Below, one piece after another: positions 501-41,534 of a stretch of 64,000 nt of DNA. Both the position numbers and the translations under genes were made by a program. How positions within the stretch are numbered: position 1 is the first letter of the stretch; every line of letters starts with the position of its first letter. The DNA comes from a virus. The DNA is taken from positions 186,001-250,000 of the IMG/VR virus record IMGVR_UViG_3300036770_004723. The stretch is one strand, 5' to 3'. A model generated the notes under the pieces. That model saw only the letters and a list, made by a program, of their open reading frames with translations, made no database searches and was not told the origin of the DNA.

Positions 501-509
501 GGCATGAAA

Positions 510-893
510 ATGAAAATTAAGGTTAGATTAATCTCTACTTCGGCATCTAATAGTAAAACTCCAGAAATTAAATCAAAAATATCTGAATTGGCTTCTTTGC
601 TTTTTGAGTCAAAAAATAAAATAATTAAAGAACTTAAAGTAACCAAGCCTTTAGTTAAATCTGTTGAATCACTAGGTTACGCTGTTCGATTGGCGCGTAA
701 GTCTCACGTAGCGCAGAATAAATTAGATGATCTTGCTTCTTTGCTTGGTGTTAATCCAGCACATTTAACATCTGCTGTAGATAAAACAGGTTATTGTCTT
801 CATTTCAGTTCAGGTGCTGCAACTAAAGCCATAGCTTCTTTAAAAAGAATGGCTAAGGCAGAATCTGTGGAGAGTTCTTCTAAAAAAGCCTAA
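510..893 (+). CDS. Small basic protein with late-block N-terminal tag
   Basis: I place the start at ATG 510 rather than 504 because the AAGG at 499-502 is 7 bases from 510 but only 1 base from 504. The product (127 aa) then begins MKIKVRLISTSASNSK, matching the M-K-hydrophobic-SxS signature of many other genes in this block. The body is helical with no family I recognise, and the C-terminus is Ser/Lys-rich (SVESSSKKA). A virion-associated role is inferred only from the tag and position. About 220 bases follow without a gene; I see no tRNA or clear terminator there. Confidence 0.7.
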   Translation: MKIKVRLISTSASNSKTPEIKSKISELASLLFESKNKIIKELKVTKPLVKSVESLGYAVRLARKSHVAQNKLDDLASLLGVNPAHLTSAVDKTGYCLHFSSGAATKAIASLKRMAKAESVESSSKKA

Positions 894-1114: not shown

Positions 1115-1669
1115 ATGAAAATTTTCGTATCGCAATCAGCTGAAGTTACACAGCAAACTTTAAAACGTAAGATGAAAATCGGCGCTAAAGTACAATTACT
1201 TATGGTCGCTTCTCCTTCAGAAATAGGAACTTTAGGTCGAGGCAAAGCATCTGTAACAATAGCACATAATTATGTTGTTACAGATATTCAAACAACTAAA
1301 TCAGGTGACATTAAAAACTGTACACTTACAGTAAAAGGACCTAAGCCTTCACCGACATTAGGTTTAAAATCTGTTGAAGTACTAACCGCAACTACATTGG
1401 CTAAGTTGATGTCAACTAAACTTAATAAAGATTCAAAAGTTGGAACTAAATCTTTAAAGTTTGTCACGGTAAAATCTAAAGACACTGCTATGGGTAACGC
1501 TAAAGATTCCAAGTTAGCTCAACTTAAAGATAAAGTTAAAGAACTTGAATCTGCATATAAAAAGGCGATATCAGATTACCATAAAGCAGAAACTGCTGTT
1601 GATAAGGCAGATAATGCACTTGATAAAGCGAAACGTGCTTTAGATCTTTATATGAGTAAAACGCTGTAG
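1115..1669 (+). CDS. Tagged putative internal head protein, paralogue of the next gene
   Basis: The 184-aa product begins MKIFVSQSAE and has a good RBS (AAGGAAG). It is a paralogue of the gene at 2033. Both have the tag ending S-A-E, then a beta-rich region, then a matching stretch (LTATTLAKLMSTKL here, LSAAKLVKLLDTRI there), then a charged coiled coil (about residues 130-178). The SAE at residues 8-10 would fit an SxE-type maturation cleavage as known for phiKZ head proteins; that is inference. The function is unknown. Confidence 0.75.
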   Translation: MKIFVSQSAEVTQQTLKRKMKIGAKVQLLMVASPSEIGTLGRGKASVTIAHNYVVTDIQTTKSGDIKNCTLTVKGPKPSPTLGLKSVEVLTATTLAKLMSTKLNKDSKVGTKSLKFVTVKSKDTAMGNAKDSKLAQLKDKVKELESAYKKAISDYHKAETAVDKADNALDKAKRALDLYMSKTL

Positions 1670-2032: not shown

Positions 2033-2866
2033 ATGAAAGTCTTTATATCACATTCGGCAGAATTTTCTACTGCTATTAAAAAGAAATTGGTTGTAGGTAA
2101 TACTTTTATTCTTAATACCTTAATCCTAGAAAAACCTGAACCTAAGCGACCTTCAGTTGGATTTATTACTTCTGAAATTCGTGCAGAGTACGCTAAGAAA
2201 CCTGCGGTTGTTAAAATTGAAAAAACTGAATATTTTATTGCTGAAGTTGAAGAAACTAGAACAGGCACACTCAAAAGTATTACCGCTAACAGAGTCAGAG
2301 GTACAAAATCTTTTACTTCAATGCGTTCAGGTTATAATCCGCCTGCTGTTTTAAAGTTAAGTGCTGCCAAATTGGTTAAACTTCTTGATACCAGAATCAC
2401 AAAAACTGATTCAAAAGGTACGCAAAGCATTACACTTAAATCAGTGACAGGATCGAAATCTGAAAAACTTGCACCTTCTTCGGTTGACTCTAAAATAGCA
2501 AAACTTCGATCTCAAATTCAAGATCTGACAAATCAATTAAATGCCCTTGATAAAATTAAGAGTGCTGAACGGGCTAAGATCGAAGCAGAATCTAATAAAC
2601 GTGCTTTAGATAAATTGAAGGCCGACGGTTACACTTACATTCAAGAAATTGCAGGTAAACGTGTTAAGAAACGTACTTTAGTGGAAGCAAGAAACGTTAA
2701 TCCAGGTATAGGTAAATCTGCGGCTATTTATGCAGTTAAAGACGGTAAAGAGCAAAAAATACTAGTGTGGTCAGCAAAAGATCCGATAACAAAACGTATC
2801 TTTAAGGGCTATATGTGGTGGTTTACCACTAACACTGCTGAGAAAAAATTTAGCGCTGCTGTATAA
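2033..2866 (+). CDS. Tagged putative internal head protein
   Basis: The start is set at ATG 2033, with AAAGGG 6 bases upstream, not at the in-frame GTG 1994. The product (277 aa) then begins MKVFISHSAE like its paralogue at 1115. Order: tag (1-10), beta-rich part, conserved LSAAKLVKLLDTRI block, coiled coil, and an extra basic C-terminal domain of about 75 residues (IAGKRVKKRTLVEARN... ending MWWFTTNTAEKKFSAAV) that the paralogue lacks. No enzymatic motif is visible. A packaged, possibly DNA-binding virion protein is a plausible but untested role. Confidence 0.75.
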   Translation: MKVFISHSAEFSTAIKKKLVVGNTFILNTLILEKPEPKRPSVGFITSEIRAEYAKKPAVVKIEKTEYFIAEVEETRTGTLKSITANRVRGTKSFTSMRSGYNPPAVLKLSAAKLVKLLDTRITKTDSKGTQSITLKSVTGSKSEKLAPSSVDSKIAKLRSQIQDLTNQLNALDKIKSAERAKIEAESNKRALDKLKADGYTYIQEIAGKRVKKRTLVEARNVNPGIGKSAAIYAVKDGKEQKILVWSAKDPITKRIFKGYMWWFTTNTAEKKFSAAV

Positions 2867-2932: not shown

Positions 2933-3277
2933 ATGAAGAAGCTTACCATTACATTAGTTTCTACATCAAAATCCGTTAATAGTATCCAACGTAATGGTAA
3001 GCATATTGAATATAATGGATTATTGTTTCCTGATTTTGATAAGCCTATTGAAATAAATGACAAACGATACAAACGTGCAGTGCTTGCACGTAAAGGCAAT
3101 GAATTCAAATTAATTCGTTATGGCCATGTTGATTACGAAGATTTTACTACACATAAAGATCCTGAACGTAGAGATCGTTTCAGGAAGAGGTTCCGTGGTA
3201 TATTAAAATCAGACGGTAAGCCAGCATACAAAGATAAGTGGCAAGCTGCTTATTGGGCGTATAACGATCTTTGGTAA
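2933..3277 (+). CDS. Small tagged protein with phage RRxxFRxR/YWxxxxLW-type domain
   Basis: The 114-aa product starts MKKLTITLVSTSKS (tag) after a strong RBS (AAGGG). The C-terminal half has a pattern I associate with small domains in giant phages and viruses: IRYGHVDY, then PERRDRFRKRFRG, then a YW...DLW end. The biochemical role of those domains is unknown to me. The tag suggests delivery to the virion. A weak GGGT...ACCC hairpin lies just upstream (about 2882-2907). Confidence 0.7.
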   Translation: MKKLTITLVSTSKSVNSIQRNGKHIEYNGLLFPDFDKPIEINDKRYKRAVLARKGNEFKLIRYGHVDYEDFTTHKDPERRDRFRKRFRGILKSDGKPAYKDKWQAAYWAYNDLW

Positions 3278-3294: not shown

Positions 3295-3915
3295 ATGAAA
3301 ATCACACTGGTCTCAACAAGCAAATCTAGTTTAGTAAGTGAATCAGCTAAAAAACCTAGTCTTACAAGTTGGTTTGATAAACTTTCAAAAGAAGCTCAAG
3401 AAGAATATTTGGAAGAGCATCCAAATAGTATTTATGCTAAGCATTCACTGCGTAAGGCAAATCACAAAGCGCGTAAATCCCGTACAGGATCTATGGCGGA
3501 AAATTTAGATCCAAGATTTGCAGAAGCCTCTAAGGGTTTAGATCCTAACTTGCTAAAAGAAGTTTCGAAATTAGATGAAGATCTACAACAAGCTTTCACA
3601 GAACATTTTTCTGGCTATATAGATGAACTTATGCTGGATTTTGATAGTGAACAGACTGATGACGCTTTAAAGGGACGTAAAGCTCGCGCTATAAAAGCTA
3701 AAAAAGAAGCAGACTCTAGCACAGATCCTAGATCTAAAAAGAAAGCTACGCAAGAGTTTAAGAGAGCCTTTGCTGATTATAAAGAATTAAAACTAGCACA
3801 ACAAAAAGCACAGGATATTATGAAAACTCCTGGTAAGCTTGAAAAATTTAAAAATGAATTAGGTAGAAAACTTTTAAGTAAAATGAGCAAAGTACAAGCG
3901 AATACTAGCGTGTAA
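3295..3915 (+). CDS. Tagged protein with SES site and YLxEHPxSxYAK motif
   Basis: The 206-aa product begins MKITLVSTSKSSLVSES; SES at residues 15-17 is a candidate maturation site. Next comes WFDKLSKEAQEEYLEEHP, then NSIYAK. The same motif is shared with the gene at 5332 and, as I recall, with other phage proteins as a short helical module near N-termini. The remainder is helical and highly charged. A head-packaged protein is my inference from the tag; no catalytic residues are visible. Confidence 0.75.
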   Translation: MKITLVSTSKSSLVSESAKKPSLTSWFDKLSKEAQEEYLEEHPNSIYAKHSLRKANHKARKSRTGSMAENLDPRFAEASKGLDPNLLKEVSKLDEDLQQAFTEHFSGYIDELMLDFDSEQTDDALKGRKARAIKAKKEADSSTDPRSKKKATQEFKRAFADYKELKLAQQKAQDIMKTPGKLEKFKNELGRKLLSKMSKVQANTSV

Positions 3916-3954: not shown

Positions 3955-5313
3955 ATGATTATTAGTATATCATCAAGAACTTCAGGTAAAGAAGTAAAAC
4001 CAGTTAAGATTCCAAAGAGTATTGCTTTCGCTGCTGAAAAAACAAAGTCTCGTATTGTTAAAGCAGTACCAGGCCGTTATATTCTTAAAAATCGCAAAGG
4101 TATGTTTGTTGTAGTAAGATTCAAAGACGAAACACGTTATACCGCAAGTGTTGGTACAAAACTTTTTTCTGCATCAAGCACTGAATCTGATGTAGAAGAT
4201 TATTTTGTTGTTGAATCTGAATCTAATCAGCCTGGTGCTCGTAATTCAGCGGCAGGAAATAAGTTGGGTAAGAAAAATCATGCTAAAGGCATGTTGGCAG
4301 CTGGTTGGTGGTTATTTGTAAAACGTGCAGATGGTAAAATGCAAAAGGCATATATAGGTGGTCGTATTAGTGGCCGTCGCCTATTAGGTTTATTAGATCC
4401 TTCAACAGTTAAAACTGAAGAACCGAAGAAACCTATCAAACCAAAAGCAAAAGCAGGTAAATTTAAAGTTGTTAAATTGAACGGTAGAAATTTATACGAC
4501 CTGAAGATAAAAGGTAAGAGTGCTGCTACTCTCAGTGCAACTCAAAAAGTTTCAAACATCAAATCTATGAAAAAATTAGGTCTTGATGATAAAGAGATTC
4601 AAGAAATTTTATCTCAACTTAAAACGGAACCACCTAAAACAGTGAAAGATTCATTAAAAGAACGTAAAGAAGAATCGAAGAGGAATGCAGACTCGCCACT
4701 GAAACAGAGAGTTAGACAACTTAATAAAGAACAGATGGCGCGTGACAAAGCTAATGAGAATTTCAGCAACAAAAAAGCACCAGAATTAAAGAACTACGGT
4801 ACGGATATGCGTACATTAGTAGATGCCATAGTAGTAGCAAGCGCTTCAAAAGATCCAAAAACACTCACTAAATATGTGAAAGAAATTGCTGCGAAAGCGC
4901 ATGAAGCTTGGGCTGCCCAATTTAGAAAAGATAATCCTGATCAAAAATCCCGCGTTAAAGCTACGAAAGATGCTGATTGGATTAAAGCAAATGGATCAGA
5001 TAAAGTTGACATTTTAAATACTAAATTTGATGACTTACCTTCTGACTGGCAAGCTGAAAATTTAAAAGGGGGTACAGCGTCACTTGCTGCTTTCATGAAA
5101 GCAGGTAAAGTGATCTCAAAAGATCCAAAAGCAGATATTTCAATACCTTTGGAAAAAGCTTCTGATGAAGTACATAAGAAGTGGCTGGAACGTAATGGAG
5201 CATGGGCGCAAGAAGATCAAAAAGTTTCATACGCTAAACTAAGTGAAACTGAGAAACAAAAAGATCGAGACTTCATTGCCAATACTATTAAAGTATTGTC
5301 GAAATACCGTTAA
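3955..5313 (+). CDS. Putative head-packaged protein with RyR-like C-terminal domains
   Basis: The 452-aa product begins MIISISSRTS. Residues 15-150 form a conserved domain shared with the gene at 5820: IPKSI, FAAEKTKSRI, PGRYIL, then ESNQPG, GNKLGKK, GWW, and KAYIGGRISGRRLL. An SES at 88-90 sits inside it. The middle (150-280) is lysine-rich linker. Residues 402-449 (VHKKWLERNGAW, then LSETEKQKDRDF, then IKVL) resemble the RyR domain (PF02026). Residues 313-380 (AHEAWAAQF, then LPSDWQAEN) look like a more divergent copy. RyR assignment is by motif only. What the domain would bind in a bacterium is not known to me. Confidence 0.7.
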   Translation: MIISISSRTSGKEVKPVKIPKSIAFAAEKTKSRIVKAVPGRYILKNRKGMFVVVRFKDETRYTASVGTKLFSASSTESDVEDYFVVESESNQPGARNSAAGNKLGKKNHAKGMLAAGWWLFVKRADGKMQKAYIGGRISGRRLLGLLDPSTVKTEEPKKPIKPKAKAGKFKVVKLNGRNLYDLKIKGKSAATLSATQKVSNIKSMKKLGLDDKEIQEILSQLKTEPPKTVKDSLKERKEESKRNADSPLKQRVRQLNKEQMARDKANENFSNKKAPELKNYGTDMRTLVDAIVVASASKDPKTLTKYVKEIAAKAHEAWAAQFRKDNPDQKSRVKATKDADWIKANGSDKVDILNTKFDDLPSDWQAENLKGGTASLAAFMKAGKVISKDPKADISIPLEKASDEVHKKWLERNGAWAQEDQKVSYAKLSETEKQKDRDFIANTIKVLSKYR

Positions 5314-5331: not shown

Positions 5332-5715
5332 ATGAAAATCAAACTGTTCATAAGTGAATCTAATTGGTTTTCGGATCTAACTGAGAAAGCAAAAAAGCTT
5401 TATATAAAGGAACACCCTGAGAGTAAATATGCAAAACAATTAAGTGAACCTTCAGCTGCTAAACAAAGTGTACGTAAGATGGAAGTATACTTTATTAAAG
5501 ATGTAGACAGATTTGTTCAAATTGTGCGTATTGATCCTAAACTACTTTTTAAACACTTCTTTATGAAGCCATCGCCTCCTTATGATATGGAGTTGCATGA
5601 AGTAGTTAATGGTGTCACAAAAGGTAAAACTTTAGATCTTCCTAGATCCGCTTTAGATGCTGCACACAAAGAAAATTTAATAGGCACACGAGTTATGCTT
5701 GTTGAATTTAAATAA
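5332..5715 (+). CDS. Small tagged protein with ISES site and YLxEHPxSxYAK-type motif
   Basis: The 127-aa product starts MKIKLFISESNWFSDL, so the tag and the SES site (8-10) are nearly fused. The motif LYIKEHPESKYAKQ follows at about residues 23-36 and matches the gene at 3295. The C-terminal part (residues 45-127) is a compact beta-rich region of unknown function ending VMLVEFK. If cleavage occurs after ISE, only nine residues would be removed, much as in T4 internal proteins. An intrinsic terminator follows directly. Confidence 0.75.
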   Translation: MKIKLFISESNWFSDLTEKAKKLYIKEHPESKYAKQLSEPSAAKQSVRKMEVYFIKDVDRFVQIVRIDPKLLFKHFFMKPSPPYDMELHEVVNGVTKGKTLDLPRSALDAAHKENLIGTRVMLVEFK

Positions 5716-5819: not shown

Positions 5820-7451
5820 ATGACTAAACCTGCTAATTCTGTTAAGCCTGTACGTGAAGGGCAGAAACAGAAAGATAAGAAGCCTGTGGTCATTCCAAAA
5901 AGTATTAAGTTTGCAGCTGAAAAAACTAAGAGTCGCATTTCATTTGCGATTCCTGGTCGCTACATTCTTCAAAACCGTAAAGGAATGTTCGCAATTGTTC
6001 GAATCAGTGAAGACACTAAAATGTCTCCGTCAATCGTCACCAAAGTATTCAAAGCAACTGCCAGTGACATTGATCTGACTGAAGATCAGATCTTTGCACT
6101 TGAGCCTGTTGAGTTAGATTCCTTATCAGAATCTAATCAACCTGGACCTAAAAATTCAAGTGTTGGCAATAAACTAGGTAAGAAAACACGGGCACCTAAT
6201 GTACTAGCTAAAGGCTGGTGGATGTTCCGTAAAGGCAAAGATGGTAAAACAGCTAAAGCCTATATCGGTGGTCGTATTAGTGGTCGTCGTTTACTTGCTT
6301 TGTTAGATCCAGCTCAAGCACCAAAACCTAAAACAGAAGTTGTTGATCAAATTGGTAAGAAACCAGTTGTCGATACAAAAAAGATTGCTGAACTCACTAA
6401 AATCTACAAAAAACTTGGTGAGGGTATTAAACAAGCTAAAGAACGTTTAACTACTTTAAAGCGCGCTACTTCTAAAATCAGTTTAAAAGCAAAGATTAAA
6501 GAAGCGATGGAAAAACGTAAAGAAATCGCGGATCAAATCAAAGCATTAAAGTCTGGTGTTAAAGTAGAAGCGAAACCTGCGGAAACAAAACCTAAAGTTG
6601 ACGCAAAACCTAAGGCTACACAGGTTAAAACAAAAGCAGATATATCTGCACTGTCCCCTAGCCAACAAGTTTCATTTAAAAAGTTAAAAACACAAGGCAC
6701 AGAACTAGTTAAAAAGATTAAAGAATTTCAGACAAAGATGGAATCTCTTAAATCAAAACCAGCTAAAGCAAAAGTTCAATCAGCTATTGATGAATTGATG
6801 AAGTTAAAGAACGCTATTGCTAAAAAACTTCAAATGTATTTAAAGAAAGCACGAGATAAAAATACTGAACCTAAAGAAGCAGCCGTTGTTAAAAAGCCAG
6901 AGCCTGCTAAAGCTGAACCTAAAGCTGTTAAGGTTAAACCAAAGGCACCTGCAAAAAAACCTGAACCTATGAGTCAGGAAAAGAAAGAAGCCAAGGCCGA
7001 AGTAAAAGATCGAGAGAGCAAAATTGATGTTCTCGTTGAGAAACATGATAGTCTTAAAGAAAAAATCGAAAAGATTAAAGACCCAAGACAGAAGGCGAAA
7101 CTTCAATCTGCAATTGATGCCATCAACAAACGGATTGAAATCAACGCCGCTAAAAAGTCTGGAGCCAATAGTCGTTTAAAATCTACAAGTGCTGAAGATA
7201 TTTATTTCCAAACTTATAGTGGTGCCGTTCAACATGCTGTGGATACCGCTACAAAAAAGGGTTACGGCTACGATCAAGATGATTATGACCGTATCGTAGC
7301 CAACAATAGTAAAAAACCTTCAGCAGGTAAAACAACTAAATTTATATTGCCTTTAATAAAAGAAGGTAAAAGGTCAGGGCTAACAGTGGCAGTTTACTGC
7401 ACTGACGCAAATACCCCAAAACCTTATGAACTCACTTACTATATACATTAA
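5820..7451 (+). CDS. Large lysine-rich virion protein, paralogue of the gene at 3955
   Basis: The 543-aa product has an N-terminal domain (24-150) shared with the gene at 3955: VIPKSIKFAAEKTKSRI, PGRYILQNRKGMF, SESNQPG with SES at 103-105, and AYIGGRISGRRLL. The centre (about 175-460) is a long Lys/Ala/Glu/Pro-rich series of coiled coils and linkers. The last 85 residues (SAEDIYFQTYSGAVQHA, GYDQDDYDRIV, KPSAGKT, YELTYYIH) form a compact domain of a type I recall from virion proteins of large phages. It has its own RBS and a promoter-like sequence upstream. It probably acts inside the capsid; a DNA-condensing role would suit the basic linker. Confidence 0.75.
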   Translation: MTKPANSVKPVREGQKQKDKKPVVIPKSIKFAAEKTKSRISFAIPGRYILQNRKGMFAIVRISEDTKMSPSIVTKVFKATASDIDLTEDQIFALEPVELDSLSESNQPGPKNSSVGNKLGKKTRAPNVLAKGWWMFRKGKDGKTAKAYIGGRISGRRLLALLDPAQAPKPKTEVVDQIGKKPVVDTKKIAELTKIYKKLGEGIKQAKERLTTLKRATSKISLKAKIKEAMEKRKEIADQIKALKSGVKVEAKPAETKPKVDAKPKATQVKTKADISALSPSQQVSFKKLKTQGTELVKKIKEFQTKMESLKSKPAKAKVQSAIDELMKLKNAIAKKLQMYLKKARDKNTEPKEAAVVKKPEPAKAEPKAVKVKPKAPAKKPEPMSQEKKEAKAEVKDRESKIDVLVEKHDSLKEKIEKIKDPRQKAKLQSAIDAINKRIEINAAKKSGANSRLKSTSAEDIYFQTYSGAVQHAVDTATKKGYGYDQDDYDRIVANNSKKPSAGKTTKFILPLIKEGKRSGLTVAVYCTDANTPKPYELTYYIH

Positions 7452-7554: not shown

Positions 7555-9843
7555 ATGACCATTAAAAAACGAGGCAAAAAACTGCCAATCGTTGTATATG
7601 GCAAGTCTGAGTCAGATGCTACTGGGTTGTACTCTGCTGTCGCTTCAGGCGATGGCGTCGTTTCACTTAGTAATGGTGTTCAATCAATTTTAACCCATGA
7701 AAGTTTAAGCGAAGCATTGTACAATCCTATGACAGGTCAAATCGATCTGGAAGAAGATGTAGAAATGACTGCAATGGCAAGCACAGCGCAACCATTAACA
7801 GGTACTGTTAGTATTTTCAGTGCAGAATGTTCTGATGGGTGCGGTAATCATATTATCAGCGACATCAATTTATCTTTCTGTCCTTCATGTTCCGCAGACC
7901 TTCCTGAAGATGAAGAAGAATCTGAAGTTGATTTAGTTGACGAAGAAGATTCAGATCTTGACGAAGAAGATTCAGACATCGACGACGATTCAGACATCGA
8001 CGACGATTCAGACATCGACGAAGATTTAGACATCGACGAAGATTTAGAATCTGAATCTAATGAAAGTATGATTGTTGTTGCAGCGGATTCATTGGCTGAA
8101 GCGGTAGCTCAGTTTCGCCAAGTAGCCAGCCAACAAGATCGTAAAATTTTTGCATCTGAGTCTGGTTCATTTGTTTCGCATTCAAATTCTGAAGTGAATT
8201 ACGATCCAATCACCAGCGATTTTGCGGAAGAAGTTGAAGGCGATGTTACTATTGTCAGCGAATCTTCTACATCCGATGAAATCGAAGCAGATCATTTAGT
8301 TTGTTCTGGTTGTAACGCACACCACATCAGTACAAGTTCTGCAATTGTAAATTGTATTCGTTGTGGTGAAGGCTTAATCGAATCCGAAAGTGCTGATCTT
8401 GATGAAGATGACTCCGAATCTGAATTGGCTTCTTTAGCTTCTGAAATTGAAGAATTAGAAGCTGAATTAGACCTCGATGAAGATGAAGATTTTGATCTGG
8501 ATGACGACGATCTAGAATCAGAATCTAGTGATGAAGACGATCTTGATATTGATTCTTTGCTATCTGAAGCTAGCGATCTTCTTGAAGAGTTTGAGGACAT
8601 CGAATTTAATTCTGAATCCTCAGATGATCTGGATGAAGATTTAAGCGATTATGATATGGATCAAGAAGAAGACCTTGATGCAGATGATTTGCTTGAATCC
8701 GAATCTTTTGCTGAAGGTAACGAATTTGGATCTTGTTCATCAGATGACGAAGATATTGATTTAGATATTCTAGATGAAGAAATTTCAGCTTTGGATTCTG
8801 ACGACTTGGAATCTGAAAGTGCCGATTTTGAACTGGATGAAGATTTAATTGATCTGCTTTCTGAGTCAAGTGACGACGAAGACGAAGACGAAGACGAAGA
8901 AGATTTTAGCCTCGAAGATTTAGATACAGATATGCCGGAAGACGAAGACGAAGACGAAGACGATTCTGACATTGAAGGCTTCGACATTGAAGATAGCTTA
9001 GATGAAAAAGAAATGGCGTCTGAATCTATGTCTTTCGATGTAGATCTACTGAAAGCATTATCTGCTACTGAAGATCTGGATGTTAAAAAATTCCATGTTG
9101 CTCACTGTGGTAGTATTGAAGGCCAGTCCACTTGGACAGCATTCTACGGTAAATTCCCAGTAGCCATGTGTTCAGAATCTAACGTCAACGAAAACACGGC
9201 ACTGAAAAATATTTTCGAAAGCGCTAAATTCGGTGAAGCGGTTAAGGCACATGCTAATGCTTCAGGTATTGACGATGCACTTACACAATTCAAGTTTGAA
9301 AGAATTAATCCTGAACTTGAAGTCGATGCAATTGTATCACAAGAACTGGTTTCACAATGTGAAGCTCGTGTGAATGAAGCAAATGAAGCATTGAATGCTG
9401 CGTTGGCCGGTGTAGATGCTGCTAAAGATCAGGAAGTTGAACAACAACTTGATCGTGTTATGGAAGCACTGTCTGCAAGTTCATTAGGTATCAACCGTGG
9501 CGTATTTGTAGGATCTTCAAATCCAATTGCAATGCGTCTAATTTCGGCATTAAGTGCTGCTGGTATTAATCCAGACAACGCAGCTGATTTAGTAAATGAT
9601 GCTTTCACTCAAGCTGGTGATACTTATGCAGAACAACTGTTAAGTCATGCACGTAGCTTGTTGGAAAAACCTGAAGATGTTGCTCAAGCAGTAATCGAAC
9701 AAATTGTTGCTACCGCTAATAATCGCATTGTTATTCCAAAAACACATGTTGAAGTAAGTGACAAGAAAACTCAGCCGATGCAATCTGAATCTTCTTCAAA
9801 AGCTTCAGCTTCTAATCACTTCCTTGCTATCCTTGAAAATTAA
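7555..9843 (+). CDS. Acidic scaffold-like prohead core protein with 14 SES sites
   Basis: The 762-aa product lies just before the head accessory and capsid genes, where scaffold or core genes usually sit. It starts with a basic leader ending KSES (17-20). Two tandem copies of a module of about 100 residues follow, each ending in a zinc-ribbon-like Cys set (C92/C96/C109/C112 and C250/C253/C267/C270). They are separated by, and followed with, long Asp/Glu/Ser runs (118-168 and 280-490). The C-terminal 270 residues are a more ordinary helical domain. SES occurs 14 times, mostly inside the acidic runs. I infer a core protein cut into small acidic peptides at maturation, like T4 gp22. No protease motif is seen. 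Confidence 0.65.
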   Translation: MTIKKRGKKLPIVVYGKSESDATGLYSAVASGDGVVSLSNGVQSILTHESLSEALYNPMTGQIDLEEDVEMTAMASTAQPLTGTVSIFSAECSDGCGNHIISDINLSFCPSCSADLPEDEEESEVDLVDEEDSDLDEEDSDIDDDSDIDDDSDIDEDLDIDEDLESESNESMIVVAADSLAEAVAQFRQVASQQDRKIFASESGSFVSHSNSEVNYDPITSDFAEEVEGDVTIVSESSTSDEIEADHLVCSGCNAHHISTSSAIVNCIRCGEGLIESESADLDEDDSESELASLASEIEELEAELDLDEDEDFDLDDDDLESESSDEDDLDIDSLLSEASDLLEEFEDIEFNSESSDDLDEDLSDYDMDQEEDLDADDLLESESFAEGNEFGSCSSDDEDIDLDILDEEISALDSDDLESESADFELDEDLIDLLSESSDDEDEDEDEEDFSLEDLDTDMPEDEDEDEDDSDIEGFDIEDSLDEKEMASESMSFDVDLLKALSATEDLDVKKFHVAHCGSIEGQSTWTAFYGKFPVAMCSESNVNENTALKNIFESAKFGEAVKAHANASGIDDALTQFKFERINPELEVDAIVSQELVSQCEARVNEANEALNAALAGVDAAKDQEVEQQLDRVMEALSASSLGINRGVFVGSSNPIAMRLISALSAAGINPDNAADLVNDAFTQAGDTYAEQLLSHARSLLEKPEDVAQAVIEQIVATANNRIVIPKTHVEVSDKKTQPMQSESSSKASASNHFLAILEN
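7945..8049 (+). repeat. 18-bp tandem repeats encoding DSDIDD
   Basis: Several copies of an 18-base unit (GATTCAGACATCGACGAC and close variants) encode an Asp-rich hexapeptide inside the scaffold-like gene. The near identity at DNA level suggests recent slippage expansion. A second, shorter GACGAAGAC-type run lies at about 8873-8962. Confidence 0.8.
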
Positions 9844-9861: not shown

Positions 9862-10554
9862 ATGTTAACTATTAACAGTCGTTACTTTAAAAGTGTAGAC
9901 CGTACAATGCTTGAAGGTTCTGATGTAAAAGGTGACGGTCAGATCTTAGTTCTTGTAAATGAAAACGGTGTAACTTGTGCCCGTCCATCTACAGGTGTAG
10001 GTAAAGAAATTTTTGGCGGTATTTTGATTAGTTCTCAATTACCGCAAACCCACGGTTCAAACGTTGAAGAATTTAAAATCACAAGTTCTTCAGTTCGTTT
10101 AGCCCGTAAACCTGAATCAAGTCAGTTACTGGTACGTGTGGACGGCAGTAAGAAAACAGTTACTACCGGAACAGCTGCACCTGTTGATGCAACTAAAGTA
10201 ACATTGACACCTAACGGTGAATTAATGTTCCACGCTGACCACTTGAATAAAGCAGGTTTCGTTCAATATCACTATGAATTAACTGCAAGTGAAGCCCGTG
10301 CTTTAACCGGCGATTATTTCGCAGGCGTACACAATACACCAGTATATTCTACAGGCGTTGCGGCTGCCGGTGTTGAAGGTACGTACCAAACAGATATGTT
10401 CGATGCTTCAGCAGATTGGTCGGGTATCATTCACCCATTTATTGGTGCTGATGGCCGTTTTGCTGCTGACGGTGATACAGAATTAACTAACGTAAAAATC
10501 ATGGAATCACCTAACTCAGGTTCTCCATTCTTGACTGTTGAAGTCGGCAATTAA
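9862..10554 (+). CDS. Probable head decoration or accessory protein
   Basis: The 230-aa beta-rich protein is encoded 18 bases after the scaffold-like gene and 41 bases before the major capsid gene, with its own RBS (CGGAG). This is the usual place of a decoration protein. The N-terminal half has short strands and turns (ILVLVNENGVTCARPSTG, GGILISSQLPQT). The C-terminal half carries an FIGADGRFAADG loop. No Cys-rich or catalytic motif is present. I do not recognise a specific family, so the assignment rests on position and composition. Confidence 0.55.
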   Translation: MLTINSRYFKSVDRTMLEGSDVKGDGQILVLVNENGVTCARPSTGVGKEIFGGILISSQLPQTHGSNVEEFKITSSSVRLARKPESSQLLVRVDGSKKTVTTGTAAPVDATKVTLTPNGELMFHADHLNKAGFVQYHYELTASEARALTGDYFAGVHNTPVYSTGVAAAGVEGTYQTDMFDASADWSGIIHPFIGADGRFAADGDTELTNVKIMESPNSGSPFLTVEVGN

Positions 10555-10595: not shown

Positions 10596-11684
10596 ATGAG
10601 TAATTTAGTCAAAGGTAAAACTTTCAGTCTGCGTAACGGCGCACCGGTGACAGATCTGAAATTCAAAGGCAGCAACATGACTGCTCTTTCAAGTAACGGT
10701 GAAGTGAACGCAAATGACAATCGCGATCTGATGCACAAAATCGGCCAGCTGTTACAGTCTGTATCATCTGGTGAAATTGTTCAACAAAATGTAGGTGCAT
10801 TTGCTTCTTTATCAAATTCAGATAAAGTAAATTTGATCGCTGTTGCAAATTCTGATAAAGATAAATGGGCTGCTTTAGGTGCATCTATCGCACAAGAAGT
10901 ACGTGAACAGCAAACTCGTCAAGGTTTTTTACGCAGCATGACTGTTGTTGAAAACATGAAACAAGGCGAAGTAATGCGAGTTCCTATGCCTAAGCATGGC
11001 GGACGCGCTATTGTTGCAACTGGCCCAACTGCATTGCAGTATCAGTTAATTAATGATCGTTACTTTACACCTAGCCCGTTTGAATTAAAAGCTTCGGTAC
11101 GTGTAAGTAAGTTAGAAATGGTGCAGGCAACGCACGATTTATTAGACCATGCTTACAATGAAGCTGTTGAAGGTATGGTAACTGCCGGTGATCGTATTTG
11201 GAAAAGCGCTGCTGATCGTACTGTTGGTAAATCAAACAATTTGGTTGGTTTTAGCGGTGCTTTAACTCCGGCAGTTATTTCTCGTGCTGCTTCACGAATT
11301 CGTGAATGGAATCTTCCTGTATCTCGTGCAGTTATTGCTGCAAGTTTTTGGGAAGATATCCAATCTGAAAGTTCATGGGCAACTGCACTGACTCCAGTGT
11401 CACAGTACGAATTACTGTTAACTGGTAAGATTGCAACTATCTTCGGTCTGGATCTGATGACTGATGGTTTCCGTCCTGAAAACCAACGTGTGTTGACACG
11501 TAACGATGCTTATATTGTTGCTGATTCTGAATATCACGCTACTATGGGTTCGTTTGGTGGTATTGAAAGTACTCCAACTGATGGCTCCAACAACGGTGAA
11601 ACTACCAAAGGTTGGTTACTGTCTGAAGTAATGTCTTTCGTTATTCCTAACACACGTTCAGTTATCAAACTGCAACGTATCTAA
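10596..11684 (+). CDS. Major capsid protein
   Basis: The 362-aa product is taken as the HK97-fold coat subunit. It follows the scaffold-like and decoration-like genes and precedes the tail genes. The order fits the fold: an N-terminal arm (1-105) with an amphipathic helix, then strands and a long helix (TPSPFELKASVRVSKLEMVQATHDLLDH), a P-domain-like centre, and a C-terminal A-domain end (SFVIPNTRSVIKLQRI). Codon choice and RBS (CTGGAG) suit high expression. An N-terminal arm removed by a prohead protease is possible, but no obvious site is visible. Structural prediction would settle the fold. Confidence 0.75.
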   Translation: MSNLVKGKTFSLRNGAPVTDLKFKGSNMTALSSNGEVNANDNRDLMHKIGQLLQSVSSGEIVQQNVGAFASLSNSDKVNLIAVANSDKDKWAALGASIAQEVREQQTRQGFLRSMTVVENMKQGEVMRVPMPKHGGRAIVATGPTALQYQLINDRYFTPSPFELKASVRVSKLEMVQATHDLLDHAYNEAVEGMVTAGDRIWKSAADRTVGKSNNLVGFSGALTPAVISRAASRIREWNLPVSRAVIAASFWEDIQSESSWATALTPVSQYELLLTGKIATIFGLDLMTDGFRPENQRVLTRNDAYIVADSEYHATMGSFGGIESTPTDGSNNGETTKGWLLSEVMSFVIPNTRSVIKLQRI

Positions 11685-15512: not shown

Positions 15513-15854
15513 ATGAAACGTGTTGCTTTTAATCTGGAAAGTAAATCAGTTGACTACAAAGATATTAATAGTACTACTCCAGTTTTAAAATTTCGACGGC
15601 CAAAACGACGAATGAAGCTCAGAGTAAAAAGACCTAAACCTAATACAACAATAGGAATACTACGTAAAAAACTGGCCAGCATTAGAAGTAAAATAGTTAA
15701 ACGTTTAGATGACACTAAATTCAGATTAGGCAATAAAGCTTTATTACCTAAAAAGAAAATGGAAGCAAATAAGTTTTACAATCAGTATAAAACATTAAAG
15801 ATGCGACTAGATAAATTGCAGTCTATAAAGAAAAATCCACAAAAATTAATGTGA
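15513..15854 (+). CDS. Small very basic tagged protein
   Basis: The 113-aa product begins MKRVAFNLESKSVDY, close to MKRIRVNLESISAL of the gene at 39141, so the two share an N-terminal tag variant. The rest is extremely Lys/Arg-rich (RRPKRRMKLRVKRPKP). A nucleic-acid-binding packaged protein is likely from composition. It lies inside the tail cluster but does not look like a tail component. Confidence 0.7.
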   Translation: MKRVAFNLESKSVDYKDINSTTPVLKFRRPKRRMKLRVKRPKPNTTIGILRKKLASIRSKIVKRLDDTKFRLGNKALLPKKKMEANKFYNQYKTLKMRLDKLQSIKKNPQKLM

Positions 15855-15864
15855 GAACACTATT

Positions 15865-16512
15865 ATGCTGATTTCTATAAGCGTTACACCTAGTTATGCT
15901 TGGTATAGCTATGTGTTAAAACGCAAATTAAGCTACGGTAATGCACACAAAGAATATGTTCTGGAGTTAAATGAAGGTGATATATTCGGTGTCCGTAAGG
16001 CAGGACGTGTCTTTTATTTAATTGTTAAAGACTATACTGACATAGTTTTTAAGCTGACTACAGAAGAAGCAGAAGACCTTATAAAAAAATGTAAAGGTTG
16101 GTCAGGAAAGATTGATAAAAAAATAGTTTCAGCTGGAATTGGAGGCAAAGATTTAAGAGTAAGGCCGTCTGTAGCAGAAACTAAAATCAAAGCCCCTAGA
16201 ACATCAGGAAATAGTGGTGAAAATAAAGAGTTGACTGCTACTCTAAAGAAACTGCGTATTAAAGGTATAGCAGACATAAAATTCTTACATAAAGAATCTT
16301 TTTTACCTAATGAAATAACTTATTACTACGATATAACATCTTTATACAACGCTTACGCTATATCAAAGCGTTTTGACTCTAAGCCTAAAACTTGGGGAGA
16401 TGCTATAGAGGAAATGATTGAAAAATTAATTTCTAACCTTGATGTGGAGTGTGGTACTGTAAATTACTTAGGTAAGCCTACTAAATTAATGTCGGTATTA
16501 GTGTTGGAGTAA
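15865..16512 (+). CDS. Tagged hypothetical protein
   Basis: The 215-aa product starts MLISISVTPSYAW, a variant of the late-block tag. It has a beta-rich N-terminal part (VLELNEGDIFGVRKAG), a linker (about residues 100-130), and a mostly helical C-terminus. No family is recognised. It sits with two other unfamiliar genes between the tube and a second tube-fold gene. Confidence 0.65.
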   Translation: MLISISVTPSYAWYSYVLKRKLSYGNAHKEYVLELNEGDIFGVRKAGRVFYLIVKDYTDIVFKLTTEEAEDLIKKCKGWSGKIDKKIVSAGIGGKDLRVRPSVAETKIKAPRTSGNSGENKELTATLKKLRIKGIADIKFLHKESFLPNEITYYYDITSLYNAYAISKRFDSKPKTWGDAIEEMIEKLISNLDVECGTVNYLGKPTKLMSVLVLE

Positions 16513-27347: not shown

Positions 27348-28256
27348 ATGAACACACCTTATTTAGACAGTTTGAGTGCAGGCAATTCTTATTTATCTGC
27401 GGACGGCCTCGCTAATATCGAGAACATTGCAGAGTTAAGAAAAGATATTGTTTCATATGTAAAGACCATGAAGCCTCAGGCAGTTGTTAAAAAAGCTGCT
27501 GGTGGTTTTGCAGTTACTATTGTTGTGCCTGTTAAACAACGCAAAGAAGTAACTACTTTAATGGCAGTAGTAAAGCCATTTGCTACAGGTAAAATTGCTG
27601 TAGCTGGTGAAGCAGGTAAATTCACAATGAGTTTTGTTTGTGAAGATAAAGCCACTGCTGAAAAAGCTGTTGAAACTTACGGCCGTTCTGCTAAAGTTGT
27701 CTCACCTATTATGTACTACACTGTACCAAAACGTAGTAAGGCAGTTAAATATAGTGCAGTAAAAACAAAAGCTAAAGAACCGGCTTATATGAAAAAACGC
27801 GCTATTAATATTAGCGAACGGACTTCAGTAAGCGAAGCCGTTACACAATTGCTTCCTGTTTATGCTAAAGGAGTTCTGTCGGCGGCTCTTGAAAAGAAAA
27901 TGATGACAGCTGTTTCTGCGTTAAAAAGTCATATTAACAAAGTACCAAAAGTCAAAGAAACTGCTGGTGCCCAAGCTGATAAAAATCGCGCAGTTAAACA
28001 AAAAGAATATGCAGGTTTAGCTAAAGAAGTTCGTGCCTTGTTAGAAGAATCCGGTATTAAAGCCGCTAATATTGTATTAGGTACTTCAATTGCAGGTCAA
28101 ACACTTTACGTTAAATTGGCATCAGGTAAAGTAATGACGGTTGGACTTTCTTCTGTAGAGAACTTCAACAAAGCTAAAAAAGCTGCCGCTGAAGCTTATA
28201 CTGAAGATGAACTGGATGATGCAGATGAAAAACCTGCACGTCGCCGTCGTAGTTAA
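27348..28256 (+). CDS. Probable virion protein with basic C-terminus
   Basis: The 302-aa Ala/Lys/Val-rich protein follows its own terminator-promoter pair and ends in a hairpin, so it is a transcription unit of its own, consistent with a well-expressed structural protein. It has two beta-rich regions (FAVTIVVPVKQR; ANIVLGTSIAGQTLYVKL), a central helical part with SVSEA, and an acidic-then-basic tail (EDELDDADEKPARRRRS). The family is unknown. Confidence 0.65.
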   Translation: MNTPYLDSLSAGNSYLSADGLANIENIAELRKDIVSYVKTMKPQAVVKKAAGGFAVTIVVPVKQRKEVTTLMAVVKPFATGKIAVAGEAGKFTMSFVCEDKATAEKAVETYGRSAKVVSPIMYYTVPKRSKAVKYSAVKTKAKEPAYMKKRAINISERTSVSEAVTQLLPVYAKGVLSAALEKKMMTAVSALKSHINKVPKVKETAGAQADKNRAVKQKEYAGLAKEVRALLEESGIKAANIVLGTSIAGQTLYVKLASGKVMTVGLSSVENFNKAKKAAAEAYTEDELDDADEKPARRRRS

Positions 28257-28317: not shown

Positions 28318-28770
28318 ATGAAGCTTAATATACATTTATGTGGTTTTATTTCTGTTTCTCAAGGAAGTAATATTGATGTAAGTTACGCATTTAAAAAAGC
28401 AATAAAAGCTTATATTAATAACCAAAGAATTTTACCTTCGAAAATTGAAAATGGATTAGAGGCAGATGCTGAAGATACTTTAGTCTTAGGTATTTTAAAA
28501 TGTATTCCATACGTCTTACAAGATATTAATTCAAAGATTGTTATTTTTGAAACAAAAGACGGAACTAAACTTAAATCTTGCGTTATATCTGACTCACGTA
28601 TTGTATATGACAATGCAAGTGCTTTCCGTATAGTACCTAAGAACGATGTAATTACACAAGAAAACAAGCCTTTTGTTTATAAAGGCTTAGGTAACAAGAG
28701 CAGTATCTACTTTCCTTATGTTTCTTTTACACATCAAACTTTAGAAAAACATATTAAAAAAATAAGCTGA
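28318..28770 (+). CDS. Hypothetical protein with late-type N-terminus
   Basis: The 150-aa product begins MKLNIHLCGFISVSQGS, a longer variant of the tag. The rest is alpha/beta, with YVLQDINSKIVIFETKDG and an Ile/Val-rich beta core. It has a good RBS (TTGAGG). No family is recognised. Confidence 0.6.
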   Translation: MKLNIHLCGFISVSQGSNIDVSYAFKKAIKAYINNQRILPSKIENGLEADAEDTLVLGILKCIPYVLQDINSKIVIFETKDGTKLKSCVISDSRIVYDNASAFRIVPKNDVITQENKPFVYKGLGNKSSIYFPYVSFTHQTLEKHIKKIS

Positions 28771-31062: not shown

Positions 31063-31611
31063 ATGAAAATCTTAATTAGCCTATCAAACGAAAAAATAAA
31101 TAAGAGTAGCGCAACGTTCGGTCCACTTACTGTAGTAGCGAATTTTGCTAACAAAAATATGTACAGTTGTACATGGGCAAATAAGATGAAAAATTCATCT
31201 ACTATATTGACCAAACTTGGATTTAAAAGCTATAGTGTCGTAGTAACTGGTCCAAATTTGCCTGAAAGTTCTCAAGCTTTTAAAGATTTAACTTCAGCTG
31301 CTTTAGGTTTCTTTAGTAATTGCAGTACAGTGCGTTTAGAAGACCTTAATATTGTTAATGGCAGGAAATGGGCAGCGGATTGGATCAAAAACGTAGAAAA
31401 TGTTTCTACGTTAAATGTACGTCTTGACATTAGAAGTAGAGAGCGCGACAATCTTCATATTCCTGTAACTGTAGGAACTGATGTTAAACGGCGCGGTGTA
31501 TTACTGTCTATTACTGAAATGAGTGCTAAATGCCGTGTAATGTTATTAAATGCGGATGGCAGCAATGGTAATGTTCTTGAATTGCCAAAAGATCAAATTT
31601 GGATTGAATAA
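31063..31611 (+). CDS. Tagged hypothetical protein
   Basis: The 182-aa product begins MKILISLSNEKINKSS, a clear example of the tag. The body is beta-rich (ATFGPLTVVANFA; IPVTVGTDVKRRGVLLSI). No known family. The tag suggests a virion-packaged protein. Confidence 0.65.
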   Translation: MKILISLSNEKINKSSATFGPLTVVANFANKNMYSCTWANKMKNSSTILTKLGFKSYSVVVTGPNLPESSQAFKDLTSAALGFFSNCSTVRLEDLNIVNGRKWAADWIKNVENVSTLNVRLDIRSRERDNLHIPVTVGTDVKRRGVLLSITEMSAKCRVMLLNADGSNGNVLELPKDQIWIE

Positions 31612-31620
31612 GGAATAGCT

Positions 31621-34428
31621 ATGTTTCCTATGGTGCAGCAGTACTTAAAAATAGTAAATGATTTAGGATTAGTTCCTTTCGTTTCTTTAAATACCTCTAA
31701 TCAAACTTCAGTTAGTGAAGTAAATTCTGTTAATAGATTGACCTCTGTAGAAAAAGACTCTAATAGTCTTTCATTTATACCTCAACTGTGTATCGATCAA
31801 GATACTGGATACATGAAAGATGATGTTACAGGCGTTTATTATACTTTAAATAGGCTTTATATAGGAACACGGCCTGTAACAGTTTTCTTAAAAGCTTTAG
31901 ATATAGATCCAGAACTAGCTTTACCTAGTCATTTAGTTTGCTCTGTCGGGTACAGTAAAAAACTAAATGAATGGGTTGCTTGGAATTTGACAGGTGCCGA
32001 TTCTTTTTGCAGTCGTGAGGCAGCAGTTTCCTGGGTAAATGAAACATCCAACGTAAACATTGATCGTTATTGTAGTCTTGATAAAATGTTTGCTAGTGCT
32101 GTAATCACATCTAGAGTATTTTTTAAAGCCTTGGATTGCTATTTTGGTAACATTACAGAATCCTTACCTGTAGCCGAATATAAAGAGCAGAATCTAGATA
32201 AAATTTTTGAACACATAGATCTCGATCTAGATAAAATTTTTGAAAACTGTAACGAAAAAGATTCAGGCGCGTTCAATGAAATGGTCGAGCCTTTACTAGC
32301 TTTATTTAAACAAAAAGACGTAGAAAAATCTAAATTTATCTCAGATACTGCTAGGTCTGCAAATCCATTGTACTACCGTATAAGTGGAGAACATAGACAA
32401 CATAATAGAAATATGCCTAAACAAGCTTTGACTGGTCAAAGACACAGCGGCGCACATTATCAACATAATGTACCAACTGATTCAAACCTAACCAAACCAC
32501 ATACTGGAATAAAAATAGGAATTAAAAGAAGTGGTGATCATGTCCAACATAATCATACTGGACCTACTTTTAGTTCTTTGAATAATGAAAGTTTTGTATC
32601 AGAAAGTGCCGAAGATCCAACCAAATATGAATGGTATCGTTATGTTCCAGTTAATGGCCGTAGTATTAGCCTTAAAGGATATCATAAAGAATTTGATCAG
32701 GCCAGTATAGATGATACAGAAGTTTACGGTATTAGACAAATTCGAGGCAAAGAAGAATTCTACTTGACCTTTGGTAATGCTCAAGATTTCGGTATACTTT
32801 TCAGGGTTCCTACTGCTTTGGTTAATCGCGCTATAAAAAATAGCAAAACATATAAAGGTAAGGTTCCTTTAGGTAGAGCAGTAAAGCCTGTTGATGTAAA
32901 AGAAGTGAAGCCTTCTCAGGTTAAAGAAAAAGTAAATAAAATAGTACCAAAAACTGAAAAGCCTTTAACTATAAAAGAACGTCGTGAGGCAGAAAGGCAA
33001 AGACTTTTAGAAGAATCTAAAAATAAGCGACTTCAACCTCAAGTACGCGACCAAGTTATACGTCCCGATGGCAAGATTAATTTAAGTGACATTGATGCCA
33101 TTAATGTTAAATCGCGCGATGTTACATATTTAGGTCTTTACCAACAAAGCATATTCTCAGACGATTACCATGTAGTAATTAATGACGAACGCGATGAATT
33201 ATATTCAAACATAATGAGTGAAATAACTCGCGGTAAGAATAGTAATCCTATAGCGTATTTATTTCGCGTTAGAACAAGTCAAGATTGGGTAGCCCCATAT
33301 CTAGGTGTATCCGCTAATAAGATGCGTATGAACAGTGCTATTGTTAAACGGATAATTGCTTCAAATAAACACGAAGTAATTAAAGGCATTAAAAACGTAG
33401 CAAACTTTGATGAAAAGCCTGAGCTACCTAAAGCAAGTAAGTTCAAACGTGCTGAACCTATTTATTACGGCAATAACTTTGCCGTACTTTCTGAAATAAA
33501 ATCTGCGATTCTCCAAGGCTATTTCACTAAAGCATTCAAAGTAACCGATATTAAAAATCGCAAATCTGTTACTATTGACGATGAAAAAGCCAAGAACGAT
33601 CCGCACTTTGGTATTGAGTCTACGGATACAGATGAATTTATGTTAGTGCTTTCTGCACAAAACAATAATCCGTTCTATCAACATGAAGCAGACGAGATAC
33701 TACAAAGACTTTCACGTATTTATGGACCTACTATTAGAACTGTAGTAAAAGAAAGTAAAACAAGTGAAGGTAAGTTAATGATGTTCGTGGTTATACGTTT
33801 GGCCTTGAAAAAGGTCAGCGATGAACACTTACATAGAAGTAAAGCACTGCATGATCTTGTAAGAAATAATCTAAACAATAAACAGCAAGTGCAGAAAGGC
33901 AGCGATTTTGTTGAAAAACTGGACACATTAAAATCTGAATTCAACAAACTTTACAAGAAATATGAACAAGAAAAGATTCAGGTATCTGCAAAACGAAGCC
34001 ATGAAGAATTGAACTTAAAAACTGAGATCGACAAACTTAAGTTACAACTTCAAGCCAAAGGCACAGCTAATGTAAGACCTATTCTGGATAAGCACGATAA
34101 ACTTGTTCAACAATTAAGTAAATTGCCTGCTAAATACGACGACATGTTAAAAACGGTTGAAGACATTTATTCGGAAGAAATATCTAGGCACCAGCGAGAG
34201 ATTCGTGTTTTAACAAAATCACATTCGTTGAACTTTAAAAATCAATTGATCTTTAATATGCCTGTATACAAAGCCAAATTTGGCCAAACCTTGGTTAGTG
34301 TGGAGGTTGTTGACTACAATATACCTGACGGCACTGTCGGAGTTCGTATTGTACGTGGCGGTGATAGAACAGTCCATTATATAACAAACTTATATTCATT
34401 TTTCGATGAAGAAAAAGTTTTCCCTTAA
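31621..34428 (+). CDS. Large putative virion protein with SGxHxQHN repeats and an SES junction
   Basis: The 935-aa product has an N-terminal domain (1-245). Three copies of SG-x-H-x-QHN follow at 255-262, 276-283 and 304-311, then FVSES at 325-329. A basic domain, a linker (about 410-480), and a long coiled coil near 760-870 come after, and the C-terminus is a beta domain. LDKIFE occurs twice (192-197, 203-208). If cleaved at FVSES, the His-rich N-terminal part would be separated from the rest. The histidine repeats might bind metal. No known family; position suggests a head or tail component. Confidence 0.6.
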   Translation: MFPMVQQYLKIVNDLGLVPFVSLNTSNQTSVSEVNSVNRLTSVEKDSNSLSFIPQLCIDQDTGYMKDDVTGVYYTLNRLYIGTRPVTVFLKALDIDPELALPSHLVCSVGYSKKLNEWVAWNLTGADSFCSREAAVSWVNETSNVNIDRYCSLDKMFASAVITSRVFFKALDCYFGNITESLPVAEYKEQNLDKIFEHIDLDLDKIFENCNEKDSGAFNEMVEPLLALFKQKDVEKSKFISDTARSANPLYYRISGEHRQHNRNMPKQALTGQRHSGAHYQHNVPTDSNLTKPHTGIKIGIKRSGDHVQHNHTGPTFSSLNNESFVSESAEDPTKYEWYRYVPVNGRSISLKGYHKEFDQASIDDTEVYGIRQIRGKEEFYLTFGNAQDFGILFRVPTALVNRAIKNSKTYKGKVPLGRAVKPVDVKEVKPSQVKEKVNKIVPKTEKPLTIKERREAERQRLLEESKNKRLQPQVRDQVIRPDGKINLSDIDAINVKSRDVTYLGLYQQSIFSDDYHVVINDERDELYSNIMSEITRGKNSNPIAYLFRVRTSQDWVAPYLGVSANKMRMNSAIVKRIIASNKHEVIKGIKNVANFDEKPELPKASKFKRAEPIYYGNNFAVLSEIKSAILQGYFTKAFKVTDIKNRKSVTIDDEKAKNDPHFGIESTDTDEFMLVLSAQNNNPFYQHEADEILQRLSRIYGPTIRTVVKESKTSEGKLMMFVVIRLALKKVSDEHLHRSKALHDLVRNNLNNKQQVQKGSDFVEKLDTLKSEFNKLYKKYEQEKIQVSAKRSHEELNLKTEIDKLKLQLQAKGTANVRPILDKHDKLVQQLSKLPAKYDDMLKTVEDIYSEEISRHQREIRVLTKSHSLNFKNQLIFNMPVYKAKFGQTLVSVEVVDYNIPDGTVGVRIVRGGDRTVHYITNLYSFFDEEKVFP

Positions 34429-38424: not shown

Positions 38425-38772
38425 ATGAAAATCTTTGTTTCTACATCAAATAATGCACATGAACAAGCTGGTAAAAATGTCAAAGTAGCTGTTGCATTTG
38501 CTTATAACAAAACAAATAATAAAGAATTGGATATAGTAGTTAATTTACGTAATGAACTCACTATCTACGTTCAGTTTCTTACAACAAACAAAAACATTCA
38601 GAGCAATCTTACTAATTACGTTCTTAAGAAAACAGTCGCTGATGAACTTAATGAAAAATTTGGTTCTGATTTTGATGAAGGCTTTATATCAAGTGGCGGT
38701 CCTGAAGGTGTGTCTGTTCAATACACAGCACGTACAACCTTAGGAAAGTTATTGAATAAGCAAGGACAATAG
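38425..38772 (+). CDS. Small tagged protein
   Basis: The 115-aa product begins MKIFVSTSNNAHEQAGK, nearly the same tag as the gene at 1115. A small alpha/beta domain (VKVAVAFAYNKTN; LTIYVQFLTTN) and a C-terminal YTARTTLGKLL follow. The function is unknown; packaging is inferred from the tag. Confidence 0.65.
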   Translation: MKIFVSTSNNAHEQAGKNVKVAVAFAYNKTNNKELDIVVNLRNELTIYVQFLTTNKNIQSNLTNYVLKKTVADELNEKFGSDFDEGFISSGGPEGVSVQYTARTTLGKLLNKQGQ

Positions 38773-41495: not shown

Positions 41496-41534
41496 CAACT
41501 GAGTAAACTATACTGTAACTTCTTTTAATGAACC

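Follow-up and report, generated by a model that had tools for sequence, protein, structure and literature searches.

The proteases that mature the heads of T4, phiKZ and SPN3US cut after Glu, at L/I-x-E, S-x-E and A-x-E, respectively (PMC5694885, PMC10052503, PMC9026906). In T4, an internal protein is targeted into the prohead by its first ten residues, which gp21 then removes, and the protease has a site near its own N-terminus, LIE-9 (PMC9026906).

The locus described here resembles T4 in the gene order protease, scaffold, capsid, in an acidic scaffold full of sites ([LI]xE in gp22), in an N-terminal capsid piece of similar size, in N-terminal tags of about ten residues that end at a protease site on unrelated proteins, and in a site close to the protease N-terminus. 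It differs in P1, which from sequence would be Ser (or Ala) here and is Glu in T4, in the extra feature of a hydrophobic P5, in a protease without recognisable sequence homology that carries a C-x2-C...C-x-H insert, in many more tagged genes, and in an extra 230-aa gene between the scaffold and capsid genes. With phiKZ and SPN3US it has in common that the head protease of a giant phage follows a short P3-x-P1 rule, that P3 is Ser or Ala, and that the rule varies between relatives; nevertheless, S-x-E| and A-x-E| are cut after Glu (the bar marks the cut), whereas P1 here is probably Ser or Ala, and the propeptides of SPN3US mostly exceed 100 residues and are not short tags. The herpesvirus assemblin, which cuts [VIL]-x-A|S, is similar in its small P1 and its role in scaffold maturation, and resembles the A-x-A|S of the Lu11 relatives, but it has few sites per scaffold, another P3 and no N-terminal cargo tags.

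The phage and its head-gene module

The window, a stretch of 64,000 nucleotides, covers positions 186001-250000 of a virus record that is 286,584 bases long; gene starts were assigned by rule in all ORF-based results. The capsid protein groups the phage with the jumbo myophages NCTB, Lu11 and PaBG and with Dickeya, Erwinia and Yersinia relatives (40-49% identity). The succession acidic protein, 230-aa virion protein, capsid protein was found in 15 of the 15 relatives compared, and a few genes before it the head maturation protease is often encoded; the gene of the acidic protein is the second one upstream of that for the capsid protein (Table 1). PaBG gp81 is a virion band (PMC7412058). A candidate for the prohead protease gene that the original prediction had supposed to lie elsewhere in the genome was found in the same module. 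At about 41,500-42,000 of the window, GC skew and gene direction flip jointly, at the border between the forward structural module and a reverse-strand block.

The position and composition of the 762-aa acidic protein suggest a scaffold or core protein. It matches phrog_20988, labelled 'ATPase' in that library, a label for which the Pfam search gave no support; both names given in databases, 'ATPase' and '60S ribosomal-like protein L2-A', look wrong. Its N-terminal third contains two Cys-rich, zinc-ribbon-like stretches (CSDGCGNHIISDINLSFCPSC and CSGCNAHHISTSSAIVNCIRC), which recur in the scaffolds of relatives.

Table 1. Features of the head-gene module; positions refer to the window unless given as genome positions, and the bar marks the predicted cut.
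Feature	Position	Strand	Site and remarks
Tagged gene	504..893	+	LISTS|A
Tagged gene	1115..1669	+	MKIFVSQS|A
Tagged gene	2033..2866	+	MKVFISHS|A; ATG at 2033 preferred over GTG at 1994
Tagged gene	2933..3277	+	LVSTS|K; weaker tag in G001 orthologue (VSLCTS)
Tagged gene	3295..3915	+	Two sites, LVSTS|K and LVSES|A
Tagged gene	3955..5313	+	IISIS|S; inter-domain site VESES|N; 3rd in genome for hxSxS enrichment
Tagged gene	5332..5715	+	FISES|N
Untagged paralogue of 3955	5820..7451	+	Inter-domain site LDSLS|E; [LM]DSLS conserved in G001
Acidic 762-aa protein (putative scaffold/core)	7555..9843	+	14 SES, of which 12 h.SES
230-aa virion structural protein, conserved block	9862..10554	+	phrog_16710; orthologue of PaBG gp81
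Major capsid protein	10596..11684	+	Predicted cut FASLS|N after aa 73; phrog_2522, HK97 fold
Codons of capsid site FASLS	10800..10814	+
Tagged gene	15513..15854	+	LESKS|V; SxS|V kept in G001 and NCTB, upstream residues differ
Tagged KMPT-N protein	15865..16512	+	LISIS|V; PF20294; NCTB and JA29 orthologues tagged
Tagged gene	27348..28256	+	LDSLS|A; G001 orthologue not clean SxS (VSLNA)
Tagged gene	28318..28770	+	FISVS|Q
Tagged gene	31063..31611	+	LISLS|N
935-aa protein	31621..34428	+	Inter-domain site FVSES|A (aa 325-329); G001 931-aa protein has LRSQS at 337
Tagged topoisomerase IB-like protein	35258..36928	+	LLSIS|A; PF01028 1.6e-17; G001 IISIS|A, PaBG TSLS|A
Tagged gene	38425..38772	+	MKIFVSTS|N
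Tagged gene	39141..40925	+	LESIS|ALKPSQYR; JA29 SIS|ALQPSQYR, Lu11 AVA|AVPLSIAR
Tagged gene	40942..41457	+	MRIFISLS|S
Head maturation protease	genome 184059-184853 (L010:13059-13850), just upstream of window		phrog_18299, E=1.1e-90

The S-x-S motif and its likely cut position

The original prediction regarded SES as a probable maturation-protease site, cut after SE in a manner close to the T4 LxE and phiKZ SxE rules, and allowed that part of its count in the 762-aa protein might come from composition. The 14 occurrences were confirmed, at residues 18, 166, 201, 235, 277, 287, 322, 353, 382, 420, 436, 489, 540 and 744, and the elements listed for other proteins are all present, namely LVSES (gene at 3295), FISES (5332), SESNQPG (3955 and 5820) and FVSES (residues 325-329 of the 935-aa protein). 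The 762-aa protein contains 218 D+E (29%) against 32 K+R, and is also Ser-rich; the expected number of SES is 1.82±1.33 in whole-protein shuffles and 1.94±1.35 in shuffles of 20-residue blocks, and 14 was reached in 0 of 2000 shuffles of either kind, so that Asp/Glu/Ser richness does not explain the count. With a hydrophobic residue (h) two positions before the first Ser, 12 h.SES stand against 0.5 in shuffles. The last site, MQSES|S (aa 742-746), lies about 16 residues before the C-terminus, and in most S-x-S relatives the C-terminal site of the scaffold is about 15-25 residues from the end. The 762-aa protein ranks first in the genome for hxSxS enrichment (15 vs 3.5). The second rank is held by a 274-aa protein at genome 142559-143383 (6 vs 1.3 expected), which may be another core protein. 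Over the whole proteome, 56 SES were counted, 42 of them outside the scaffold, with 33 in total expected from composition; outside the scaffold SES is thus only mildly over-represented, the general element being hxSxS and SES the form favoured in the acidic scaffold.

Where the original prediction placed probable cleavage sites, in the scaffold and at the named junctions, it holds, but the motif is really [F/L/I/M]-x-S-x-S, in which the two serines matter and Glu is optional. Counted over 13 scaffolds, h.SES exceeds expectation 16-fold and h.S[^E]S 3.8-fold, whereas h.SE not followed by Ser falls to 0.42 of expectation and h.[^S]ES stands at 0.83. The hydrophobic preference was assessed on 54 S[EQ]S sites from seven related scaffolds, picked regardless of neighbouring residues: the residue two before the first Ser (P5) is F/L/I/V/M/Y at 45 of them (83%) vs a background of 24% (p=1e-19), and no other flanking position of these sites shows a comparable peak. 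Only this scaffold test is unbiased with regard to P5, because the N-terminal tag logo was built from sites selected with a hydrophobic P5. In an unbiased ranking of 1,600 spaced residue pairs, S.S comes first in JA29, Alexandra, fHe-Yen9-02, Yoloswag and Afa-NA1 and second in this phage, A.A comes first in HRDY3 and the metagenomic relatives L101 and L054, and neither is near the top in NCTB or L029; as a control, the known L.E of T4 gp22 is ranked second by the same scan ([LI].E, 16 vs 5.75 expected).

With respect to the cleaved bond, the sequences point to the one after the second Ser (S-x-S|), or after the last Ser or Ala in relatives, as the most likely, and not to the one after SE, since h.SE lacking the next Ser is depleted and SxS|F aligns with ATA|F and SIS|A with AVA|A. 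Aligned N-terminal sites of the protease read SxS|F, ATA|F, AMA|F and ALG|F, capsid sites include IAVA|NHREIL in L036 and EVIA|SHREIL in L049, and an aligned tag site is LESIS|ALKPSQYR here, SIS|ALQPSQYR in JA29 and LAVA|AVPLSIAR in Lu11; all of these fit a cut after the last Ser or Ala, while a cut after SE needs a Glu that is absent from them. P1 would thus not be Glu, and for that reason the rule is not read as a variant of those of T4 and phiKZ, contrary to the closeness proposed originally.

The protease, the capsid site and their joint change across relatives

The N-terminus of the head maturation protease reads MLNKKIDLNFKSSS|FDLS, and SxS|F is found at the same place in relatives. The name 'head maturation protease' is the PHROGs library's label for phrog_18299, matched by all 19 members of protease set A3, and none of these members matched a Pfam peptidase family. 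PF03420 (S77, T4 gp21) had no match in the phage's own genome, PF04586 (S78) had none there or in four relatives, and hhalign of the protease against T4 gp21 gave a probability of 0.3-0.4%; in the absence of Pfam S77/S78 matches and of a profile match to gp21, the protease is not placed in S77 or S78. A model of a relative's protease (L065, pLDDT 75) matched in BFVD proteins that carry the names prohead serine protease (9.3e-6) and T4 prohead protease (9.2e-4); a PDB fold search at E<=0.001 returned no solved structure for the model, and a sequence search of solved structures yielded nothing beyond zinc-finger hits and others attributable to chance. E-H and Y-S-x-G, 57 residues apart, are invariant in set A3 and also present in distant relatives, and the conserved His and Ser are putatively catalytic. 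The best reading of these sequences is a prohead-type protease with small-x-small specificity, which would work like a prohead protease, with no claim to family-level membership. The family also has an invariant, zinc-finger-like C-x2-C...C-x-H insert right after the S-x-G motif of the putative catalytic Ser, and among its distant relatives are uncharacterised proteins of Mycobacterium and Gordonia phages and a protein of Bacillus phage G. An HExxH metallopeptidase-like gene (genome 184855-185802), with a weak SprT-like match, follows immediately on that of the protease.

The model of the capsid protein gave 337 PDB matches at E<=0.001, the best being HK97. In this predicted structure the site occupies a loop (64-73) between a delta-domain helix (42-58) and helix 74-86, a placement between the delta-domain and the shell domain according to the model. 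At the same place, relatives have EVSES|H, VHSTS|A, QVSES|Q, VHSNS|G or VHSES|S, and Lu11 has VATA|S; the NCTB-like capsid proteins lack a clean SxS. The cut would remove a predicted 19.6% of the mass here and 18.8% at the aligned PaBG site, and the PaBG capsid protein loses about 20% on maturation; PaBG gp80, gp81, gp191, gp213 and gp215 were each seen in several gel bands (PMC7412058). A relative with mapped cleavage sites was not found, nor was a report of the motif in PaBG, Lu11 or the Erwinia or Dickeya relatives in the open-licence library searched.

Among about 30 distinct jumbo phages, the scaffold bias, the capsid site and the N-terminal site of the protease mostly agree in being S-x-S or A-x-A. 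All three are S-x-S in AfaNA1, L092, Yoloswag, Alexandra, JA29, fHe-Yen9-02 and this phage, and A-x-A or A-x-G in L040, L054, L036, HRDY3 and Lu11; PaBG, L062, L085, L097 and L056 have mixed forms, and several mixed relatives combine an SxS in the protease with an A-x-A scaffold. An SxS-rich scaffold occurs in 14 of 15 phages with an SxS capsid site and in 0 of 10 with AxAS, counts that are given without a p-value since the relatives are not phylogenetically independent lineages.

N-terminal tags, alternative readings and implications

N-terminal tags, 6-15 residues long, take the form MK, hydrophobic residues and SxS (MKIFVSQS|A, MKVFISHS|A, MKILISLS|N). Of the 57 plus-strand genes in the region 175-228 kb, 20 carry one; elsewhere the figure is 18 of 315 (p=9e-9), and shuffled N-termini of the 57 module genes gave 4.8 tags on average and 12 at most. 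Over all 372 ORFs the excess is modest (37 vs 19.9), the signal being diluted by proteins that do not belong to the head module. In most orthologues the tag is preserved and the linker behind it differs, although a few tags are not clean in orthologues. At the 5820 junction, LDSLS|E of this phage corresponds to MDSLS|A in the relative G001; SxS is therefore kept and SES is not, and conservation in homologues, also raised by the original prediction, applies there to [LM]DSLS and not to SES. Whole-genome tag searches gave only a few A-x-A tags in Lu11, HRDY3 and G003 and virtually no excess in PaBG; to judge from the few tags in the first three, it is mainly the S-x-S branch that has a large set of tags. 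The tagged genes include the topoisomerase IB-like protein, KMPT-N proteins and a 2022-aa helicase, whose PaBG orthologue gp202 (221 kDa) is band 1, the largest virion band (PMC7412058). A small domain, WFxxL...YLxxHPxS, is repeated after the tag in the genes at 3295-3915, 5332-5715 and genome 181920-183515, and also in relatives. The N-terminal part of the 935-aa protein matches weakly the type I Thoeris inhibitor Tad6 (E=2e-5, just below the cut-off), and on this basis the protein may act in counter-defence.

Motif enrichment, placement, conservation and joint change, together with the protease in the same module, argue that the hxSxS elements, including SES in the 762-aa protein, are very probably recognition sites of the phage's own head maturation protease; cleavage itself, the bond that is cut and a function of the tags in packaging are inferred. 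That SES is a composition artefact has practically no weight: the protein is indeed rich in acidic residues and Ser, but global and block shuffles fail in 2000 of 2000 cases, and composition leaves the hydrophobic P5 signal aside. A cut by the same protease at SE|S, which would place Glu at P1 in the manner of T4 and phiKZ, agrees with the Glu found in the middle of 43 of the 54 S[EQ]S scaffold sites and with the habit of the studied giant-phage proteases of cutting after Glu; it is nevertheless improbable, given the depletion of h.SE and the enrichment of h.S[^E]S reported above, the middle residue of the tags, mostly L, I, E or T, and the ATA|F and AMA|F of orthologous proteases. More improbable still is that the scaffold SES are a repeated acidic motif, serving phosphorylation or binding of basic cargo or arising by repeat expansion, with the tags as a separate signal that contains SxS by chance. 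The scaffold is of low complexity, D.D is over-represented in it too (pair scan), and S-E sites generally resemble acidic kinase sites; the element, however, also occurs in the non-acidic capsid protein, the protease and the tags, where cuts are expected, and becomes A-x-A in relatives. A reading by phosphorylation or repeats only was rejected on these grounds, and the change to A-x-A rules out Ser phosphorylation as a general role.

The tags may also be merely trimming sites, or unused, and play no part in head targeting, while the scaffold, capsid and protease sites are real. The scarcity of tags in Lu11-like phages and G003 alike speaks for this possibility, but it is judged unlikely in view of the strong concentration of tags in the head-gene module, their conservation across orthologues, the presence of PaBG gp202 in the virion and the T4 precedent (PMC9026906). 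By analogy with T4, and in view of one PaBG virion protein, the tags probably bring about 20 proteins into the core.

Under the preferred reading, that of recognition by the phage's own protease, the acidic scaffold would form the prohead core, into which about 20 N-terminally tagged proteins would be drawn, like the T4 internal proteins by their capsid-targeting sequences. The protease would then remove its own N-terminal peptide at SxS|F, shred the scaffold at many sites, cut off the 73-residue N-terminal domain of the capsid protein at FASLS|N, and trim the tags, freeing the cargo. Cleavage would follow the second Ser, with Ser at P3 and P1, a hydrophobic P5 and a small P1'.

In summary, small-x-small appears to be a recognition rule different from those of the best-known phage head proteases, whose cut follows Glu. 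With somewhat less confidence than the recognition sites themselves, it is considered likely that the jumbo clade of PaBG, Lu11, NCTB and the Erwinia, Dickeya and Yersinia relatives has a small-x-small head protease whose rule drifts between A-x-A| and S-x-S| through mixed intermediates with tens of substrate sites, and that in the S-x-S branch this led to a general tag of 6-15 residues which loads the head with about 20 proteins that may act in host takeover and counter-defence. If true, this would be a new specificity class for head maturation proteases, and the natural series of S-x-S, mixed and A-x-A forms would let the co-evolution of a protease with tens of substrates be traced. The short tag would be testable for loading proteins into phage heads, and the cut site would make it possible to predict, with no more than the sequence, which unknown proteins among the hundreds that these giant phages encode are packed into the head and probably enter the bacterium.
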